Assembly (NCBI RefSeq): GCF_018881815.1
Contig: NZ_JACVPP010000001.1
Coordinates: 1,109,097 to 1,173,096 of the forward strand
Source: Polynucleobacter sp. MWH-HuK1
GTDB lineage: Bacteria > Pseudomonadota > Gammaproteobacteria > Burkholderiales > Burkholderiaceae
Length of the DNA: 64,000 bases
Direction: 5' to 3'
Positions 23,639-37,284 of the stretch are shown one piece after another (position 1 is the first letter of the stretch; each line of letters opens with the position of its first letter). The notes under the pieces were generated by a model. That model was not told where the DNA came from. It saw only the letters and a program-made list of their open reading frames with translations, and ran no database searches. The position numbers were made by a program, and so were the translations under genes.

Positions 23639-23799
23639 TAAAGAATTGAGGGGGAGATGCTCGGAGGCAGAATCCAAAGAGATTCGCCCAAGAGCTAAAA
23701 AGAGAACTGGGCATAAAGATCCAGAAAGTAGTATGGTGTCGGATGAGGCGGTATTGATAATTTACATAGCCAAAATATTGGCAAGTGGAGGAGACTAGG

Positions 23800-24783
23800 A
23801 TGTTTAAACAATTAAAACTTTCGACAATCATTAAGAAAGCGGCTTTTTTAGCGTGCGCTATGCCTTTAGTGGCTATGGCGCAGGAATGGCCAAATAAACC
23901 GATTACTTTCGTTGTGCCTTTCCCTGCAGGCGGTGGCACAGATGCTTTTGCTAGGCCTTTAGCAACACAGCTCACCAAGCAGTTAGGTAAGCAAATTGTT
24001 ATTGATAACCGTGGTGGTGCCGGTGGCACTCTAGGCGCTTCTATTGCTGCTAAGGCTGCACCAGATGGATACACCTTCTTTGTTGGTGCCGCGCACCATG
24101 CAATTGCGCCATCCATGTATCCGAATCTGGATTACGACGTTGAGAAGAGTTTTGTGCCGGTTGCAATGATTGCAAGTCCACCTCAAGTAATTGTCGTAAA
24201 TCCAAAGAATGTTCAGGTGAAGGACTTGAAAGAATTCATTGCTCTCTTGAAGAAAAACCCAGGCAAGTTCAACTACGCTAGTGCTGGTAATGGCTCCACG
24301 CATCATTTGGCTGGCGAGCAATTCAAGATGTTGACTAAAACCTTTATTACCCACATTCCATATCGTGGTGCTGGCCCAGCTATGCAAGACTTGATTGCAG
24401 GTCAAGTAGATATCGAGTTTGATGGCTTAGGTTCGTCAGCGGCTCAAATTAAAAATGGTTCGATTGTGGCTCTAGCGGTTGCATCACAAAAGCGTGCTCC
24501 CGGATTTCCGAATGTACCGACAGCGGCTGAAGCAGGCTTAGTGGGATACGAAGTATCTACGTGGTATGGCTTGTTTGCACCAAAAGGCACGCCACAACCT
24601 ATCGTCGATAAGATGATTGCTGAAACACAGAAAGCTTTAAATACACCAGAGATCAAAACCATCTGGACTAATAACGGCTCTGAAACACCTACTCTTTCTG
24701 GCGAAGCATTTGGAAAATTTGTGAGCGCTGATGTTAAGCGTTGGGCTGCTGTAGCGAAGGCTTCTGGCGCTAAATTAGATTAA
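23800..24783 (+). CDS. Bug-family periplasmic solute-binding protein
   Basis: Extracytoplasmic receptor of the Bug/TctC type, 327 residues. A signal peptide runs to about residue 28 (KKAAFLACAMPLVAMAQ). Family marks follow: WPNKPITFVVPFPAGGGTDAFAR, then NRGGAGGTLG and NYASAGNGSTHHLAGE. I chose the ATG at 23800 because GGAGGAGA lies just before it. A GTG at 23785 would overlap that ribosome site. No TctA/TctB membrane partners are nearby. Position between mcd and matB suggests malonate or a related dicarboxylate as ligand, which is inference. Confidence 0.9.
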   Translation: MFKQLKLSTIIKKAAFLACAMPLVAMAQEWPNKPITFVVPFPAGGGTDAFARPLATQLTKQLGKQIVIDNRGGAGGTLGASIAAKAAPDGYTFFVGAAHHAIAPSMYPNLDYDVEKSFVPVAMIASPPQVIVVNPKNVQVKDLKEFIALLKKNPGKFNYASAGNGSTHHLAGEQFKMLTKTFITHIPYRGAGPAMQDLIAGQVDIEFDGLGSSAAQIKNGSIVALAVASQKRAPGFPNVPTAAEAGLVGYEVSTWYGLFAPKGTPQPIVDKMIAETQKALNTPEIKTIWTNNGSETPTLSGEAFGKFVSADVKRWAAVAKASGAKLD

Positions 24784-24823
24784 GAATTTTTATTAAAAAT
24801 TACCCCTGGGGTTTGAGGTTCGA

Positions 24824-26347
24824 ATGAATTTATATTCACTATTGGAAAAAGGTTTTCCAAAAGATAAAAATGCATGTGCTCTTGAGACGCATGATGGTTT
24901 GTATTACTCCTGGGGTGACCTAGAATCTGCAACGGCAAAGCTGGCAAATTTACTTACCAGCTTGAAGTTGCCAAAAGGCTCTAGGGTGGCAGTGCAGGTT
25001 GAAAAATCACCTGAGGCTCTTTTTCTTTATTTAGCAACGATTCGTGCGGGGTATGTATATTTGCCGCTCAATACCGCTTATCAGTCTGCTGAAATTCAAT
25101 ATTTTTTAGAGAATGCTGAGCCGGCAGTAGTTGTCTGCAGCAGTAAGAATCTATCTTGGGTATCTAAGGTTGCAGCAAAAGCTGGCACTAAGCATGTCTT
25201 TACCTTAGATGAAAACCGCACTGGCACTTTATTAGAGCGTGCAGCTGGGTTGAGCGATAAATTCAAAACGGTTCCGGCAAAGGATGACGATCTTGCGGCT
25301 ATTCTGTATACCTCTGGCACTACCGGTCGTAGTAAGGGCGCAATGCTGACGCATAAGAATCTGGGTAGCAACGCGCAAGTACTGCAAAAGTTTTGGGGGT
25401 GGGAAAAAGGCGATGTTTTATTACATGCTTTACCAATCTTCCACGTTCATGGTTTGTTTGTAGCGGCTCATGGGGCGTTGATTAATGGTAGCAAGATGAT
25501 TTGGTTGCCGCGTTTAGATACCGCGCAACTCATTAAACATATGCCAAAGTCGACAGTGATGATGGGTGTTCCAACCTTCTATGTGCGCTTATTGGCTGAT
25601 AAAGGTTTCAATAAGAAAGTGGCGCGCAATATGCGTCTATTTGTTTCTGGTTCCGCTCCATTGCTTACAGAAACATTTAATACATTCAAGGAAGTCATTG
25701 GCCAGCCAATTTTGGAGCGCTATGGTATGAGTGAGACCGTGATGTTGGTCTCCAACCCTTATAAAGGCAAGCGCGTAGGCGGCTCGGTAGGTCTGCCTTT
25801 GCCTGGTGTAAAGGTGCGTGTAGTGAATGAAGACAACAAACCGTGTAGGGTCGATGAAATTGGTGGCATTCAGGTTAAAGGTCCAAACATATTTAAAGGC
25901 TACTGGCGTATGCCAGAGAAGACCGCCGAAGAATTTACCAAAGATGGTTGGTTCAAGACGGGTGACGTTGGTCGCTGGGGTGGGGATGCCAACGGCGGCA
26001 AAGCGCCGAAGGAATACTTATGCATTGTTGGCCGTAGCAAGGATTTAATTATTTCTGGTGGCTATAACGTTTATCCCAAAGAAATTGAAAGCTTTATCGA
26101 TGACATGCCTGGTGTTGATGAAAGTGCTGTGATTGGTATTCCGCATCCAGATTTTGGTGAGGCAGTGATGGCAGTAGTTGTGCCTAAGGCCGGAGCTAAA
26201 TTAAATGCTGAAGAGATGGTCGCTACTTTGAAAACACAAATTGCGAACTTCAAAATTCCAAAGCGTGTTGAAATCGTTTCTGATTTGCCTCGTAATGCTA
26301 TGGGTAAGGTACAAAAGAATATTTTGCGTCAGCAATACACAAGCTAA
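24824..26347 (+). CDS. matB: Malonyl-CoA synthetase (acyl-CoA synthetase)
   Basis: Adenylate-forming enzyme that makes malonyl-CoA from malonate, CoA and ATP. The 507-residue protein has the P-loop-like LYTSGTTGRSKGAMLTH, the motif ERYGMSET, and the C-terminal catalytic Lys region PRNAMGKVQKN. Length equals the MatB group. Malonate specificity rests mostly on the malonyl-CoA decarboxylase two genes upstream. Other short dicarboxylates remain possible. Confidence 0.88.
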   Translation: MNLYSLLEKGFPKDKNACALETHDGLYYSWGDLESATAKLANLLTSLKLPKGSRVAVQVEKSPEALFLYLATIRAGYVYLPLNTAYQSAEIQYFLENAEPAVVVCSSKNLSWVSKVAAKAGTKHVFTLDENRTGTLLERAAGLSDKFKTVPAKDDDLAAILYTSGTTGRSKGAMLTHKNLGSNAQVLQKFWGWEKGDVLLHALPIFHVHGLFVAAHGALINGSKMIWLPRLDTAQLIKHMPKSTVMMGVPTFYVRLLADKGFNKKVARNMRLFVSGSAPLLTETFNTFKEVIGQPILERYGMSETVMLVSNPYKGKRVGGSVGLPLPGVKVRVVNEDNKPCRVDEIGGIQVKGPNIFKGYWRMPEKTAEEFTKDGWFKTGDVGRWGGDANGGKAPKEYLCIVGRSKDLIISGGYNVYPKEIESFIDDMPGVDESAVIGIPHPDFGEAVMAVVVPKAGAKLNAEEMVATLKTQIANFKIPKRVEIVSDLPRNAMGKVQKNILRQQYTS

Positions 26348-30536: not shown

Positions 30537-30632
30537 CCCCGCCATTCTAGCTGAATTGGTGCGGTCTAAGACCAAAACACCCGCTCTAAAAGGCAAAAAA
30601 GCCTACAATATGAGGTCTAGGAGCAAGTATTG

Positions 30633-31250
30633 ATGACCGTATTAGATAAGCACCCCGAAAAAAACCTGATTCGCCTACAGTTGAGTCAAAACTCGGTCTT
30701 AAAAAGCTTGGATCCAGCTGCAATGGCCGAGTTAGAGCGTCATCTCGAAATTTCCGACCTTAAAAAATCTGAAATACTGCTGCACCAAGGTGACCACCAG
30801 ATGGAGCAGTACTTTGTTCTTGACGGCATCCTGAAGCGTATTGTTTCTAGTGCGGACGCAAAAGAAATGATTCTGCGTTTTGCTATCGAAAAAGATATTG
30901 AAACCAGCTATGCTGCATGGCGCCTGAAGACGGCTGCCCCCTACAGCATTGCCTCTGTAACCAAGGCCCGCGTGGCTCGGATGCCTCTAAAGAAGTGGGC
31001 AGAGTTCCTGGACCAGCATAAGATTCTTAAAGAGAGTTTTGAGTTTGAAGTCATGCGCCTGATGAGTGAAATCATGGCCCACACTATTACCTTGCATATG
31101 CTCGATGCCCCAGGCCGGGTGGAGCGTTTCCTGCGCAAATACGAGGATTTGTTTGAGCTTCTCCCTAAAAAGGAGCTTGCGGCTTACCTTAATCTCTCCC
31201 CGGAGACCTTGAGTCGCCTGAAAACAAAGCATAAAGAGCTTTTTGTTTAA
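30633..31250 (+). CDS. Crp/Fnr-family regulator of the oxalate genes
   Basis: A 205-residue regulator with an N-terminal cyclic-nucleotide-type beta barrel (SEILLHQGDHQMEQYFVLDG) and a helical dimer interface near 140-165. It ends in a short HTH, LPKKELAAYLNLSPETLSRL. The recognition helix carries E191-x-x-S194-R195, the pattern FNR uses to read TTGAT or TTGAC half-sites. There is no cysteine anywhere, so it has no iron-sulfur cluster of the FNR kind, and the signal is unknown. I start it at the ATG at 30633 after TAGGAGCAAG. A TTG one codon earlier is in frame. An FNR-type palindrome lies downstream, before oxc. Confidence 0.88.
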   Translation: MTVLDKHPEKNLIRLQLSQNSVLKSLDPAAMAELERHLEISDLKKSEILLHQGDHQMEQYFVLDGILKRIVSSADAKEMILRFAIEKDIETSYAAWRLKTAAPYSIASVTKARVARMPLKKWAEFLDQHKILKESFEFEVMRLMSEIMAHTITLHMLDAPGRVERFLRKYEDLFELLPKKELAAYLNLSPETLSRLKTKHKELFV

Positions 31251-31452: not shown

Positions 31453-33162
31453 ATGACAACAGATAATCAAAACACACAGTTAACAGATGGTTTCCATCTC
31501 GTTATTGACGCCTTAAAGGCAAACGACCTTGATACGATTTTCGGCCTAGTTGGTATTCCAATTACCGACTTGTGTCGTTTAGCGCAGGCTGAAGGTTTGC
31601 GTTTTATCGGCTTCCGTCATGAGCAGCATGCAGGTAATGCTGCAGCGATTGCTGGTTATATGACACAAAAGCCAGGTATTTGTATGACAGTATCTGCTCC
31701 TGGTTTCTTGAACGGTTTAACAGCACTTGCTAATGCAACTGTGAACTGCTTCCCAATGATTTTGATCTCTGGTTCAAGCGAGCGTGAAATCGTTGACTTG
31801 CAACAAGGTGACTACGAAGAAATGGATCAGCTCAATGCGGCTAAGCCATATTGCAAAGCTGCTTATCGTATTAACCATATCGAAGATATCGGTATCGGTT
31901 TTGCACGTGCAATCCGTGCTGCGGTTTCTGGTCGTCCAGGTGGTGTGTATTTGGATTTGCCAGCTCAGCTGCTCGCGCAAACTATGCCTGCCGACGAAGC
32001 TAAGAAATCCATCTTCAAGGTAATTGATCCAGTTCCACGTCAGATCCCAGCGGCCGATGCGGTTGCTCGTGCATTAGACGTATTGAAGGGTGCCAAGCGT
32101 CCATTGATTCTGTTGGGCAAAGGTGCTGCTTATGCTCAAGCTGATAAAGAGATCCGTGATTTGGTTGAGAAATCTGGCATTCCTTATTTGCCTATGTCAA
32201 TGGCCAAAGGTTTGTTGCCTGACAACCATCCGCAGTCTGCTTCCGCAGCACGCTCATTTGTATTGGCTGAAGCTGATGCGGTGTTGTTGGTTGGTGCGCG
32301 TTTGAATTGGTTGCTTGCACACGGTAAAGGTAAGACTTGGGGTAAAGAGCCTAAGAAATTTATCCAAATCGATATTCAAGCAAACGAAGTGGATAGCAAC
32401 GTACAAATTGCTGCTCCATTAATTGGTGATATTGGCTCATGCGTTGGCGAGCTCTTGAAGGGTATCTCTTCTGTTCCTAAGCCAAGCGCTGAGTGGATTG
32501 CAGCTATCACTGAGAAGAAAGATAAGAACACAGCCAAGATGGCGGAGACATTGGCTAAAGAAGCTAACCCAATGAATTTCCACGGTGCATTGCGTGTGAT
32601 TCGTGATGTGATCAAGAAGAACCCAGATGTGAACTTGGTAAACGAAGGTGCAAATACGCTCGACTATTGCCGTGCAATCGTTGATATGTACAAGCCACGT
32701 AAGCGTTTTGACTCTGGTACTTGGGGCATTATGGGTATCGGTATGGGCTATGCGATTGGTGCTGCTGTAACTAGTGGTTTGCCAACAGTGGCCGTAGAGG
32801 GTGATAGCGCGTTCGGTTTCAGCGGCATGGAATTAGAAACCATTTGCCGTTACAACTTGCCAATCACAACGGTTGTTTTCAATAACAACGGCGTTTACCG
32901 TGGTACTGACGTTAATCCAACAGGCGGTGCTGATGTTGCGCCTACCGTGTTTGTTAAAGATGCCCGTTACGACAAGATGATTGAAGCATTTGGTGGTGTT
33001 GGTTATTACGTAACTACACCAGCAGAGTTAGAAGCAGCGTTAACAGAAGCTATTGCTGCCGGTAAACCAGCTCTCATCAATGCTGTTATTGATGAAACTG
33101 CAGGTACTGAGAGTGGACGTTTAACAAACTTAAACCCATCCACTGCAGCTGCTAAGAAGTAA
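31453..33162 (+). CDS. oxc: Oxalyl-CoA decarboxylase
   Basis: Thiamine diphosphate enzyme that converts oxalyl-CoA to formyl-CoA and CO2 in the cytoplasm. The 569-residue protein reads closely like Oxalobacter Oxc. Shared stretches are GVVGIPIT-like [18 protein letters not shown] with the catalytic Glu57, [21 protein letters not shown] and GARLNWL. The ThDP/Mg motif [12 protein letters not shown]...NNNG is near residue 450. A formyl-CoA transferase gene follows after 49 bp, the textbook pair for oxalate breakdown. The ribosome site is poor. Confidence 0.97.
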
Positions 33163-33211: not shown

Positions 33212-34462
33212 ATGACTAAACCATTAGACGGCATTCGCATTATTGACTTCACACACGTACAGGCAGGTCCTGCATGTACTCAGTTGCTTGGCTTTTATGG
33301 CGCTGACGTTATTAAGGTAGAACGTCCAGGTGCTGGCGACGTAACTCGTAGCCAGTTGCGCGACGTACCAGGTGCAGATGCTTTGTACTTCACTATGCTC
33401 AACGGTAATAAGCGTTCTTTGACTTTAGATACCAAGACGCCAGAAGGTAAGGAAGTTTTAGAGAAGATGATTAAAGTTTCTGACGTAATGGTTGAGAACT
33501 TTGGTCCAGGCGCTTTGGATCGTATGGGTTTCTCATGGAAGCGTATTCAAGAATTGAACCCAAAAATGATTTTGGCTTCTGTAAAAGGCTTTAGCGATGG
33601 CCACTCATATGAAGACTTAAAAGTGTATGAGAACGTTGCTCAGTGTGCTGGCGGTGCTGCTTCTACAACTGGTTTCTGGGATGGTCCTCCAACTGTTTCT
33701 GCTGCGGCTTTAGGTGACTCTAATACTGGTATGCACTTGGCAATCGGTATTTTGACCGCCTTGATGCAACGTCAAAAGACTGGCAAAGGCCAAAAAGTTT
33801 CTTGCTCAATGCAAGACGCTGTACTGAACTTGTGCCGCGTGAAATTGCGCGATCAACAACGTTTGGACAAAGTTGGTTACTTGGAAGAGTACCCGCAGTA
33901 CCCACACGGTTCATTCACTGACGTAGTTCCACGTGGCGGTAACGCCGGTGGTGGCGGTCAGCCAGGATGGGTGTTGAAGTGTAAGGGTTGGGAAACAGAT
34001 CCAAATGCGTACATCTACTTCACTATTCAAGGCCATGCATGGGAACCAATTACTAAAGCTTTGGGCAAACCAGAGTGGGCAACTGATCCAGCGTATATGA
34101 CTGCTGAAGCTCGTCAAGACAAGATTTTTGATATCTTCGCAACCATTGAAGACTGGCTCAAAGATAAGACTAAGTACGAGGCTGTGGACATCCTCCGCAA
34201 GTTCGATATTCCATGTGCTCCAGTTCTCTCAATGAAAGAATTGGCTGAATCACCAGACTTGCGTAAGAGTGGCTCTATCGTTGAAGTTGACCACAAAGTA
34301 CGCGGCAAGTATTTGACTATCGGTAGCCCAATCAAGTTCTCTGATTTGGAAATCGAAGTCAAGCCATCTCCAGTATTGGGTGAGCACACTGACGAAGTAT
34401 TGGCTGACCTTGGCTATGGCAAGGATGAAATTGCTAAGTTGCACGCAGCAAAAGCTGTTTAA
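33212..34462 (+). CDS. frc: Formyl-CoA:oxalate CoA-transferase (first copy)
   Basis: Family III CoA-transferase that moves CoA from formyl-CoA to oxalate, feeding Oxc. The 416-residue protein has the catalytic Asp169 in [12 protein letters not shown] and the mobile glycine loop [12 protein letters not shown]. Position 48 is Gln (RSQLRD), as in E. coli YfdW, where Oxalobacter Frc has Trp. A strong GGAGAAAC site precedes the ATG. It is cotranscribed with oxc and ends at a clear terminator. Confidence 0.95.
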
Positions 34463-34533: not shown

Positions 34534-34962
34534 ATGAATACAAGTGTCGATTTACATAAATTGGTGGAGTGCGTAGGCGATGCGATCATTGTTGCTGATG
34601 CCCATGAAAAGATTGTGCTTTGGAATCCTGCCGCCACTCGTATCTTCGGATACTTGGAGAAAGAAGCTTTAGGCAATACTTTGGATCTCATTGTTCCGGA
34701 GCGCCAACGTCAAAAACACAATGAGGGTTATAGCCACTCTATGGAGACCGGCACCACTCGGTATGGAACATCTCTTTTGAAGGTGCCCGCCAAACACAAG
34801 GATGGCAGTACGCTCTCGATTGCCTTCACTGTGGGAATGCTCTTTGATGCCTCTGGTAAGGCCAATGGGGTAGTGGCAATCATTCGGGATGAAACCGAGC
34901 GCTTTGCTCAAGAAAGGGCTCTCAAAAAGCGTCTTTTTGACCTTGAAAACCCTCAGACTTAG
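34534..34962 (+). CDS. Single-domain PAS protein
   Basis: A 142-residue cytoplasmic PAS sensor with no output domain. The PAS core starts LHKLVECVGDAIIVADAHEKIVLWNPAATRIFGY and ends in the PAC-like VVAIIRDETERFAQERALKKR. A similar layout is found in small PAS proteins that precede or follow metabolic operons. It lies alone after a terminator and before the second frc. Ligand and partner are unknown. The Crp/Fnr protein at 30633 is one possible partner, but that is speculation. Confidence 0.8.
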   Translation: MNTSVDLHKLVECVGDAIIVADAHEKIVLWNPAATRIFGYLEKEALGNTLDLIVPERQRQKHNEGYSHSMETGTTRYGTSLLKVPAKHKDGSTLSIAFTVGMLFDASGKANGVVAIIRDETERFAQERALKKRLFDLENPQT

Positions 34963-35102: not shown

Positions 35103-36350
35103 ATGGCAAAAGCACTAGAAGGGGTCAAAATCCTCGACTTTACGCACGTTCAATCAGGCCCAACCTGTACTCAGTTACTGGCTTGGTTTGGTGCGGACGT
35201 AATCAAAGTAGAAAAATCTGGCGAAGGGGATGCAACACGTGGTCAGTTGCGCGATATCCCCGATGCAGACAGTTTGTACTTCACGATGTTGAACCACAAC
35301 AAGCGTTCCATCACCGTGAACACCAAAACTCAAAAGGGCAAAGAAATTCTTGAGCGCCTCATTAAAGAGTGTGACGTTTTAGTGGAAAATTTTGCACCAG
35401 GTGCTTTGGATCGCATGGGATTTTCTTGGGAGCGTATTCAAGAACTCAATCCAATGATGATCATGGCCTCTGTAAAAGGCTTTGGCCCTGGTCCATACGA
35501 AGATTGCAAAGTGTATGAGAACGTAGCGCAATGTGCTGGCGGCTCAGCATCAACTACTGGTTTTGATGATGGCCCTCCGATGGTAACTGGTGCACAAATC
35601 GGTGATAGTGGAACAGGCTTGCATTTAGCGCTCGGTATTGTTACTGCACTCTATCAACGTACCCACTCTGGCCGTGGTCAGAAGGTATTGGCAGCAATGC
35701 AGGATGCGGTATTGAACTTGTGCCGGGTGAAGTTGCGTGATCAACAACGTTTAGAGCGCGTAGGTCTCATGCAAGAGTACCCACAGTTCCCGAACGGTGA
35801 GTTCGGCGACTCTGTACCCCGTGCAGGCAATGCCTCTGGAGGTGGTCAGCCAGGCTGGATTGTTAAATGTAAGGGTTGGGAAACTGATCCAAACGCCTAC
35901 ATGTATGTAATCGTTCAAGCTCCAGTTTGGGAAGCAATTTGCAAAGTAATCGGTCGCGAAGATTGGATTACGGATGTACGTTTTGCATCACCAATGGCAC
36001 GCTTGCCACATCTCATGGAAATTTTCGGCGAGATCGAAAAGTGGACCATGACCATGACTAAGTTTGAAGTCATGGATATCCTCAATCAGTACGACATTCC
36101 ATGCGGCCCAATTCTTTCTATGAAAGAAATCGCTGAAGAGCCAGCATTGCGTGCGACTGGTACTGTGGTTGAAGTGGATCATCCAATTCGTGGCAAGTAC
36201 CTTACTGTTGGTAATCCGATCAAGATGTCTGATAGCCCAACTGAAGTGACACGTTCACCATTGCTTGGTGAGCACACCGATGAGATTCTTCATGAGTTGG
36301 GTTACACCACTGACGATTTGATTTCACTCCGTCACGATAAGGTGATCTAA
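35103..36350 (+). CDS. frc: Formyl-CoA:oxalate CoA-transferase (second copy)
   Basis: A 415-residue family III CoA-transferase that looks like a paralogue of the copy at 33212, with the same YfdW-like start ([21 protein letters not shown]). The catalytic Asp is Asp168 in [11 protein letters not shown]. It differs at the glycine loop, where the first Gly is Ser ([11 protein letters not shown]), and lacks one residue near position 131. The differences may shift the CoA donor or acceptor. The formyltransferase gene starts two bases after its stop, so the two are probably coupled. Confidence 0.92.
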
Positions 36351-36351
36351 G

Positions 36352-37284
36352 ATGCGGGTTGCCTTGATTGGGAGTGCGGATTTTGGTAAAGCGGCATTAG
36401 AAGCTTTTTTGAATCGCGGCGATGAAGTGGTTGCCGTTTTCTGTCCACCGGATAATCCCAAATCAAGCAAACCGGAAGTATTAAAAGAAGCTGCACTCGC
36501 AAGGGGTTTAAACCCCTTGCAGTTCGCCTCTCTAAAGGGTCCTGAGGCTGCTCAGGCTATGATTGATAGTAATGCCGACATCTGCGTCATGGCATACGTC
36601 ATTCAATTTGTACCGCAAGAGCTCTGCAAGATCCCGAAGCACGGTACTATTCAATATCATCCATCGCTCCTTCCTAAATATCGCGGCCCCAGCGCTATTA
36701 ATTGGGCAATCGCATTAGGTGAAGAGAAAACAGGTTTAACAATTTTCCGTCCATCTGATGGCTTGGATGAGGGCGAGGTGATTTTGCAAAAAGAAGTTGT
36801 CATTGGGCCGAATGACACCTTAGGCAAGATCTACTTTGATCATCTTTTCCCAATTGGGGTTAAAGCTCTGCTAGAAGCTGCTGACCTTGTGGTCGCCGGC
36901 AAGCATCAAGAAATCATTCAAGATGAATCACAAGCTAACTATGAGGGTTGGTTTGATGCTAACGCTGCGCAGATTCATTGGGCTACACACATCAGTCAAA
37001 TCTATAACCTGATTCGTGCTTGCAATCCAGCGCCCGGTGCATGGACTAAGTTCGGCGAGCAAAAGGTTCAGATCTACGACTGTCATAAGCATGTAGCTGC
37101 TACATTCGGTGCCGTCAAAGGTAAGCCGGGCGAGGTAACGCAGATCACGCTAGATTCTTTCTTTGTCACCTGCCATGGTGGGCAGATCGAAGTTCTGAAA
37201 GCCAAAGGTGCCGCAGGTAAACTAAGCGGTGCTGAGCTAGCGAAAGAGTTGAGTTTAGAGGTAGGACAGTTCTTTGCCCTGTAA
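36352..37284 (+). CDS. Free-standing formyltransferase like the hydrolase domain of 10-formyl-THF dehydrogenase
   Basis: A 310-residue protein with a formyltransferase N-domain (MRVALIGSADFGKAALEAFL) and a C-terminal Fmt-type OB-like domain from about residue 205. It matches residues 1-310 of animal 10-formyltetrahydrofolate dehydrogenase (FDH) better than methionyl-tRNA formyltransferase. The HPSLLPKYRGPSAINW stretch and SDGLDEGE place His103 and Asp139 at the same 36-residue spacing as FDH His106 and Asp142. The Asn that Fmt enzymes keep two residues before the His is Gln101 here. Its location two bases after frc suggests it handles formyl groups from formyl-CoA. Reaction and direction are not established. 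Confidence 0.82.
   Translation: MRVALIGSADFGKAALEAFLNRGDEVVAVFCPPDNPKSSKPEVLKEAALARGLNPLQFASLKGPEAAQAMIDSNADICVMAYVIQFVPQELCKIPKHGTIQYHPSLLPKYRGPSAINWAIALGEEKTGLTIFRPSDGLDEGEVILQKEVVIGPNDTLGKIYFDHLFPIGVKALLEAADLVVAGKHQEIIQDESQANYEGWFDANAAQIHWATHISQIYNLIRACNPAPGAWTKFGEQKVQIYDCHKHVAATFGAVKGKPGEVTQITLDSFFVTCHGGQIEVLKAKGAAGKLSGAELAKELSLEVGQFFAL

Follow-up and report, generated by a model that had tools for sequence, protein, structure and literature searches.

The usual account of oxalate breakdown has free formate, released by formyl-CoA:oxalate CoA-transferase (Frc), as its endpoint. The closest described relative of the protein considered here, which we call FTX, is the hydrolase domain of 10-formyltetrahydrofolate dehydrogenase (FDH; ALDH1L1 in animals). 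FDH is described as passing formyl from 10-formyltetrahydrofolate (10-formyl-THF) to a protein-bound phosphopantetheine (PMC8748788), and its catalytic triad is given as His106, Ser108 and Asp142 (PMC6802093). HypX has been proposed to pass formyl from 10-formyl-THF to CoA, and the authors of that proposal state that direct experimental results are lacking (PMC6802093). A 2026 paper on oxalate genomics takes formyl-CoA to formate by Frc and mentions neither tetrahydrofolate nor THF (PMC12927642). Among open-licence full texts, titles and the beginnings of abstracts, we found no description of a formyl-CoA:THF formyltransferase in oxalate operons.

We analysed a stretch of 64,000 nucleotides (the window) from the freshwater bacterium Polynucleobacter sp. 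MWH-HuK1, whose genome (G000) comprises 2.17 Mb in 2 contigs. The window holds an array in the order oxc-frc-PAS-frc-FTX, with FTX as the last gene; panC comes after FTX on the opposite strand. The features are as follows.

30630..31250, forward strand: CRP-like regulator (PF00027), start codon uncertain.
31453..33162, forward strand: oxc, oxalyl-CoA decarboxylase, the formyl-CoA source (TIGR03254, 989.4 bits, cut-off 739.4).
33212..34462, forward strand: frc1, formyl-CoA:oxalate CoA-transferase (TIGR03253, 724.6 bits).
34534..34962, forward strand: single PAS-domain protein between frc1 and frc2 (TIGR00229, 77.3 bits, cut-off 22.9; PF00989).
35103..36350, forward strand: frc2, CoA-transferase of the formyl-CoA:oxalate type (TIGR03253, 731.6 bits, cut-off 504.2), with a glycine-rich GGGQ loop.
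36352..37284, forward strand: FTX, a free-standing, FDH-hydrolase-like formyltransferase of 310 aa (Formyl_trans_N and Formyl_trans_C; His103/Ser105/Asp139, Gln101).

Oxc and both Frc proteins score above their NCBIfam equivalog cut-offs. The preliminary description placed two bases between frc2 and FTX; there is only one, as the stop codon of frc2 ends at 36350 and the ATG of FTX lies at 36352. Homologs of the CRP-like regulator flank most FTX operons, mostly in divergent orientation. The stand-alone PAS gene between frc1 and frc2 is retained in some loci of the genus and absent from others. About 5 kb upstream of oxc, at 23785-26347, lies a pair formed by a TctC-like gene (recognised by eye) and an acyl-CoA ligase of the malonyl-CoA synthase type (845.9 bits, cut-off 558), a possible source of a CoA ester. 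A glycine-rich loop is said to mark formyl-CoA:oxalate transferases (PMC3720670). Of 192 rows, 189 span this loop, and all 189 have it in the form GGGQ; the idea that the neighbouring CoA-transferase has a different specificity was discarded.

FTX matched Formyl_trans_N (PF00551; 100.4 bits, cut-off 26.1) and Formyl_trans_C (PF02911; 56.9 bits, cut-off 21.1), and with both domains above the Pfam gathering scores it belongs to the formyl transferase superfamily. The Pfam scan gave no further match at 0.001; carrier and aldehyde dehydrogenase domains are absent, as is an enoyl-CoA-hydratase-like C-terminal domain of the HypX type. The 310 residues consist of the two formyl transferase domains alone, which confirms the earlier claim that the carrier domain is missing. 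FTX fell below every NCBIfam cut-off and reached 155.4 of 201.5 bits with the Fmt model TIGR00460. Against PDB sequences, it matched the FDH hydrolase domain (2bw0) with an E-value of 6e-48, Fmt with 3e-35, ArnA with 3e-30 and HypX with 1e-9. A 20-row FTX profile gave 2e-80 for FDH, 4e-58 for Fmt and 2e-19 for HypX. In a maximum-likelihood tree of 30 rows, FTX and animal FDH formed one clade (94/98) apart from Fmt and ArnA. Support for an FTX clade without FDH was 74/41 in the same tree, and HypX formed a very long branch that could not be placed. The match to the FDH hydrolase domain in the preliminary description is borne out by these searches and by the tree. The AlphaFold2 model of FTX, built from 55 rows, had a mean pLDDT of 94.5. 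Foldseek ranked FDH (4qpd) first by E-value with a TM-score of 0.86, and Fmt (4iqf) had a TM-score of 0.92. Since Fmt chains outscore FDH in TM, the fold was dropped as a discriminator between the two.

The window genome encodes four weaker relatives of FTX, which pass the cut-offs as Fmt (251.4 bits), an ArnA-like formyltransferase (PRK06988; 464.4 bits, cut-off 316), PurN and PurU. Among the best 80 of 560 relatives in species genomes, the closest matches to FTX are from Polynucleobacter, at 97% identity. We conclude that FTX represents a real, widespread and apparently uncharacterised family. Animal ALDH1L1 may have acquired its hydrolase domain from the free-standing bacterial FTX lineage, with a tethered phosphopantetheine replacing CoA.

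The FDH triad corresponds to His103, Ser105 and Asp139 of FTX, which do not vary among 57 aligned FTX proteins. The preliminary description had taken the spacing of His103 and Asp139 as a mark of FDH. The 36 residues do fit FDH (106/142), but the argument does not discriminate FDH from Fmt because the spacing in Fmt is equal. The residue two positions before the catalytic His was scanned in 97 rows, with two (L059 and L060) set apart for their Fmt motif with Asn. This residue was Gln in 92 of the 95 FTX proteins and Cys in 3, and the replacement of the Fmt Asn, earlier read from Gln101, therefore extends to all 95. The position is held by Asn in Fmt, the ArnA-like enzyme, PurN and PurU of G000, by Ile in the FDH rows and, by eye, by Val in Cupriavidus HypX. 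FTX has neither the FDH-type Ile nor the Fmt-type Asn. Judged from such alignments, the loss of Asn may mark thiol rather than amine partners. A formyltransferase-like protein of Ensifer adhaerens (L185, 3001-3846) has Gly instead of Asn at this position.

Within the genus, 151 genomes were sorted by hand at E <= 1e-40 for FTX and E <= 1e-150 for Oxc. FTX was found in 121 and Oxc in 123; 116 genomes had both, 5 FTX only, 7 Oxc only and 23 neither (Fisher p 2e-16, relatedness ignored). The 30 genomes without FTX include the 7 Oxc-positive ones, and several of the misses are incomplete genomes. All 18 stretches retrieved from other genomes of the genus contained frc. FTX is oriented divergently from oxc-frc at three loci (L061-L063); at two of them, L061 and L062, TctC and TctA-like genes come after FTX. 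An acyl-CoA synthetase of the ADP-forming type follows frc in L061 (9575-11743) and is a candidate for the activation of oxalate or formate. Four genus genomes with complete contigs (G023, G105, G107 and G116) have a broken or partial FTX; oxc is partial in G105 and G107, was not found in G023 and is full length in G116.

The 399 genomes of the order gave 81 matches at 1e-45. Of these, 79 are clear orthologs (E <= 1e-93), 7 from the genus, and the two weak matches (L059 and L060) have the Fmt motif. All 72 non-genus orthologs were retrieved and probed with 13 proteins. An frc, oxc or 2-hydroxyacyl-CoA lyase-like gene was present in 71 of the 72 stretches, L053 having none. In 68, no probed gene lay closer upstream of FTX on its strand than frc, and the gap exceeded 300 bp in L020 and L024 only. 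Three loci (L044, L049 and L074) have the arrangement OxlT-FTX-oxc with no adjoining frc; each of these genomes has frc elsewhere, and FTX as the sole formyl-CoA user was rejected for them. Counted by genome, 66 had FTX and Oxc (E <= 1e-190), 13 FTX only, 9 Oxc only and 311 neither (Fisher p 8e-52, relatedness ignored), so that FTX is missing from 9 of 75 Oxc genomes.

In 11 of the 13 FTX-positive, Oxc-negative genomes, a 2-hydroxyacyl-CoA lyase-like ThDP enzyme replaces oxc and is followed by frc and FTX (L022, L031, L039, L043, L047, L048, L052, L076, L084, L094 and L097). Given this replacement, formyl-CoA appears as the common denominator of the operons. The ThDP enzyme of L047 has 2-hydroxyacyl-CoA lyase as its best PDB match (E 5e-81). 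With NCBIfam it reached 372 bits for the lyase model (cut-off 600) and more, 487 of 587, for an acetolactate-synthase model. The substrate of the lyase-like operons is possibly another 2-hydroxy acid.

The 398 genomes of the phylum contained 10 FTX matches, five from the genus, two from the order and three from elsewhere. Two of the last three (L056 and L058) have oxc-frc-FTX, and in the third (L057) FTX lies next to fhs, while frc is found at another place in the genome. A Paracoccaceae plasmid carries oxc-frc-FTX-fhs, and the annotations nearby are Ppc, succinyl-CoA ligase and serine hydroxymethyltransferase. Named species were scanned with the 20-row profile, and the best 80 of 560 relatives were taken; this set is selected by similarity and overlaps the loci of the order and phylum. 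It includes 16 Polynucleobacter, many betaproteobacterial MAGs, seven Methylobacterium and four Acidobacteria MAGs. Among these best 80 of 560, the stretch held frc in 74, oxc in 52 (50 at a stricter cut) and any of frc, oxc or the lyase-like gene in 76. The other four (L131, L142, L144 and L150) had none of the three in the stretch; L142 and L150 are short contigs with TctC/TctA. Methylobacterium has FTX with frc and an oxalate/formate antiporter; oxc lay outside the fetched stretch in 6 of 7 cases, yet it is present in all 7 genomes. FTX was found in 26 of 59 Methylobacterium genomes. Over 174 loci (duplicates included), frc came first upstream of FTX among the probed genes of the same strand in 155, with a median gap of 12 bp. 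No Frc-FTX fusion occurred among the loci compared, and a stop always lay between the two genes. Methylobacterium, Rhodobacterales and Acidobacteria MAGs share the linkage, and because it is found in many genera it is not a matter of chance. The preliminary description had named a lack of conserved linkage to oxc and frc in other genomes as an outcome that would count against it, and the counts for the order orthologs and for the named loci (best of 560) exclude this.

The folate side was followed through fhs. No fhs match was found in G000, nor in 106 of the 121 FTX genomes of the genus (present in 15). Within the genus, fhs was found in 4 of 7 genomes with Oxc and no FTX versus 14 of 116 with both (p 0.009, relatedness ignored). 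Outside the genus the trend was the opposite, with fhs in 44 of 50 FTX genomes versus 1 of 9 Oxc-positive, FTX-negative genomes. The 50 consist of 47 of the 72 non-genus order orthologs, chosen with all 13 Oxc-less genomes included, plus G635, G805 and G588; the fhs match of G197 consists of fragments. In 21 of the 50, fhs and FTX shared a contig and lay no more than 13 kb apart. A role of FTX as a general substitute for fhs fitted the genus pattern but was rejected given the 44 of 50 outside it. Eight FTX-fhs regions, picked for the closeness of both genes, were opened. Seven contain FTX, frc and fhs, accompanied by oxc or the lyase-like gene in six of the seven, by TctC/TctA in five and by SucCD-like genes in two; the eighth (L195) has FTX and fhs alone among the probes. 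A formate dehydrogenase alpha subunit scored above its cut-off in L189, L191 and L193, and one also adjoins the OxlT-FTX-oxc array of L044. Genes for a CitE-like lyase and a malic-enzyme-like protein occur in L193; neither reaches its NCBIfam cut-off, and both are supported by Pfam. The FTX-fhs region is an oxalate, formate and one-carbon cluster.

Across these genomes, a protein of the formyltransferase fold family with conserved active-site residues is linked to frc, oxc and oxalate transporters and, in many genomes, to fhs and formate dehydrogenase. From this we infer its substrates, its binding of CoA and its direction. FTX probably exchanges formyl between formyl-CoA and tetrahydrofolate (THF), in either direction, priming included. 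Such an exchange is the simplest reading because an FDH-type site without a carrier occurs with gene partners that make or use formyl-CoA, and it best fits the homology, the active-site residues and the gene linkage across orders. FTX would bind folate as FDH does, and free coenzyme A would stand in for the fused 4'-phosphopantetheine carrier, offering the same arm. His103, Ser105 and Asp139 would shift the formyl group according to formyl-CoA + THF <-> 10-formyl-THF + CoA. Formyl-CoA from Oxc, or in some operons from 2-hydroxyacyl-CoA lyase-like enzymes, would in this way be joined to the one-carbon folate pool. In assimilation, oxalate carbon would enter folate without free formate, which would matter in genomes without fhs such as G000. 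The direction from formyl-CoA to 10-formyl-THF is slightly favoured. Where fhs is present, however, Frc and Fhs are already able to make 10-formyl-THF. The gain from FTX is then not obvious because formyl-CoA drawn from the Frc cycle costs a CoA ester that needs replacement. We give even chances to the wider picture, in which FTX would be an ATP-free one-carbon bridge between CoA and folate in Burkholderiales (in the GTDB sense), Methylobacterium, Rhodobacterales and some Acidobacteria MAGs, and may be the source of the ALDH1L1 domain. Such a bridge would either admit formyl-CoA from oxalate or from 2-hydroxyacyl-CoA cleavage to the folate pool with no free formate, or work in reverse to prime the breakdown of oxalate.

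The title of the preliminary description ran from oxalate to folate. This direction is not established, given that the co-location of FTX and fhs fits priming about equally well and that P. sinensis is non-assimilating. Four Polynucleobacter species have been described as non-assimilating for oxalate (PMC5018217; also PMC3308952), and FTX status was matched for P. sinensis alone among them. Strain MWH-HuW1 of this species carries the whole oxc-frc-PAS-frc-FTX array (L106). Since it has the operon and is nonetheless non-assimilating, a role in bulk assimilation is weakened; one-carbon supply, energy use or priming remain.

The same exchange may run in reverse, with FTX converting 10-formyl-THF and CoA to formyl-CoA and so priming or replenishing the Frc/Oxc cycle; we regard this direction as the less likely one. 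The cycle recycles formyl-CoA with no net synthesis, and where fhs lies beside FTX the two enzymes together would act as an ATP-driven formate-to-formyl-CoA synthetase. In the formyl-CoA/10-formyl-THF pair the higher energy is on the side of the thioester, and priming would therefore run uphill. FDH, and HypX as proposed, work from 10-formyl-THF towards the thiol (PMC6802093, PMC8748788), and for E. coli it has been argued that the Frc/Oxc cycle needs priming, with an acetyl-CoA:oxalate CoA-transferase as the suggested source (PMC3720670). The co-occurrence of FTX with fhs, often within 13 kb, is what enzymes in series would show, and frc is a steadier neighbour of FTX than oxc, as the Methylobacterium stretches illustrate. 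A priming role would explain the company of FTX with both frc and fhs, and it suits the non-assimilating P. sinensis (PMC5018217). On the other hand, G000 and most FTX genomes of the genus show no fhs, and several clusters hold a SucCD-like ligase, a CitE-like lyase or, by the annotation at L015, serine hydroxymethyltransferase, and look assimilatory.

It is improbable that FTX is a hydrolase of 10-formyl-THF or formyl-CoA that releases formate and spares THF or CoA. The isolated N-terminal domain of FDH, the domain to which FTX is closest, is reported to hydrolyse 10-formyl-THF in vitro (PMC8748788). However, G000 already has a PurU-type deformylase above the cut-off, Frc already liberates formate from formyl-CoA, splitting 10-formyl-THF beside fhs would be futile, and hydrolysis of formyl-CoA needs no folate-type site. 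An ordinary amine formyltransferase (for Met-tRNA, a sugar nucleotide or another substrate) placed here by chance is very improbable: the fold and both Pfam domains are common to Fmt and ArnA and the FTX homolog of L015 is annotated fmt_2, but FTX scores under the Fmt cut-off, G000 has its own Fmt and ArnA-like enzymes, the Asn is replaced throughout FTX, and the frc/oxc linkage is kept across classes.

Returning to the formyl-CoA/THF exchange, FTX is probably the CoA-folate link for the one-carbon piece of oxalate, found in the same operon place in many bacteria. If so, a dedicated formyl-CoA/folate enzyme would change the stoichiometry of oxalate use and explain the priming or draining of the Frc/Oxc cycle. 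It would also account for an unassigned gene of many oxalate operons, named a second fmt in some annotation, and would provide an enzyme for synthetic one-carbon pathways passing through formyl-CoA. The family further suggests a testable origin for the hydrolase domain of ALDH1L1.

Compared with known systems, FTX is closest in sequence to the FDH/ALDH1L1 hydrolase domain and shares its two domains and His/Ser/Asp triad, the formyl partner of FDH being a phosphopantetheine thiol. Unlike FDH, FTX has no fused carrier or aldehyde dehydrogenase, has Gln or Cys in place of Ile, and lies in an operon with frc and oxc. The N-terminal domain of HypX/HoxX is alike in its Formyl_trans domain, in the proposed transfer between 10-formyl-THF and CoA and in the missing Asn; FTX differs in lacking the enoyl-CoA-hydratase-like domain, in its distance (E 1e-9) and in its gene context. 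Fmt shares the fold, the two domains and the His and Asp, whereas FTX stays below the Fmt cut-off, lacks the Asn and coexists with a separate Fmt in G000. Fhs would share the product 10-formyl-THF with FTX and is often in the same cluster, but it is an unrelated protein that uses formate and ATP. Finally, YfdE, an acetyl-CoA:oxalate CoA-transferase, is likewise an accessory gene of oxalate operons and a suggested primer of the Frc/Oxc cycle; in contrast to FTX, it is an unrelated CoA-transferase that involves no folate.
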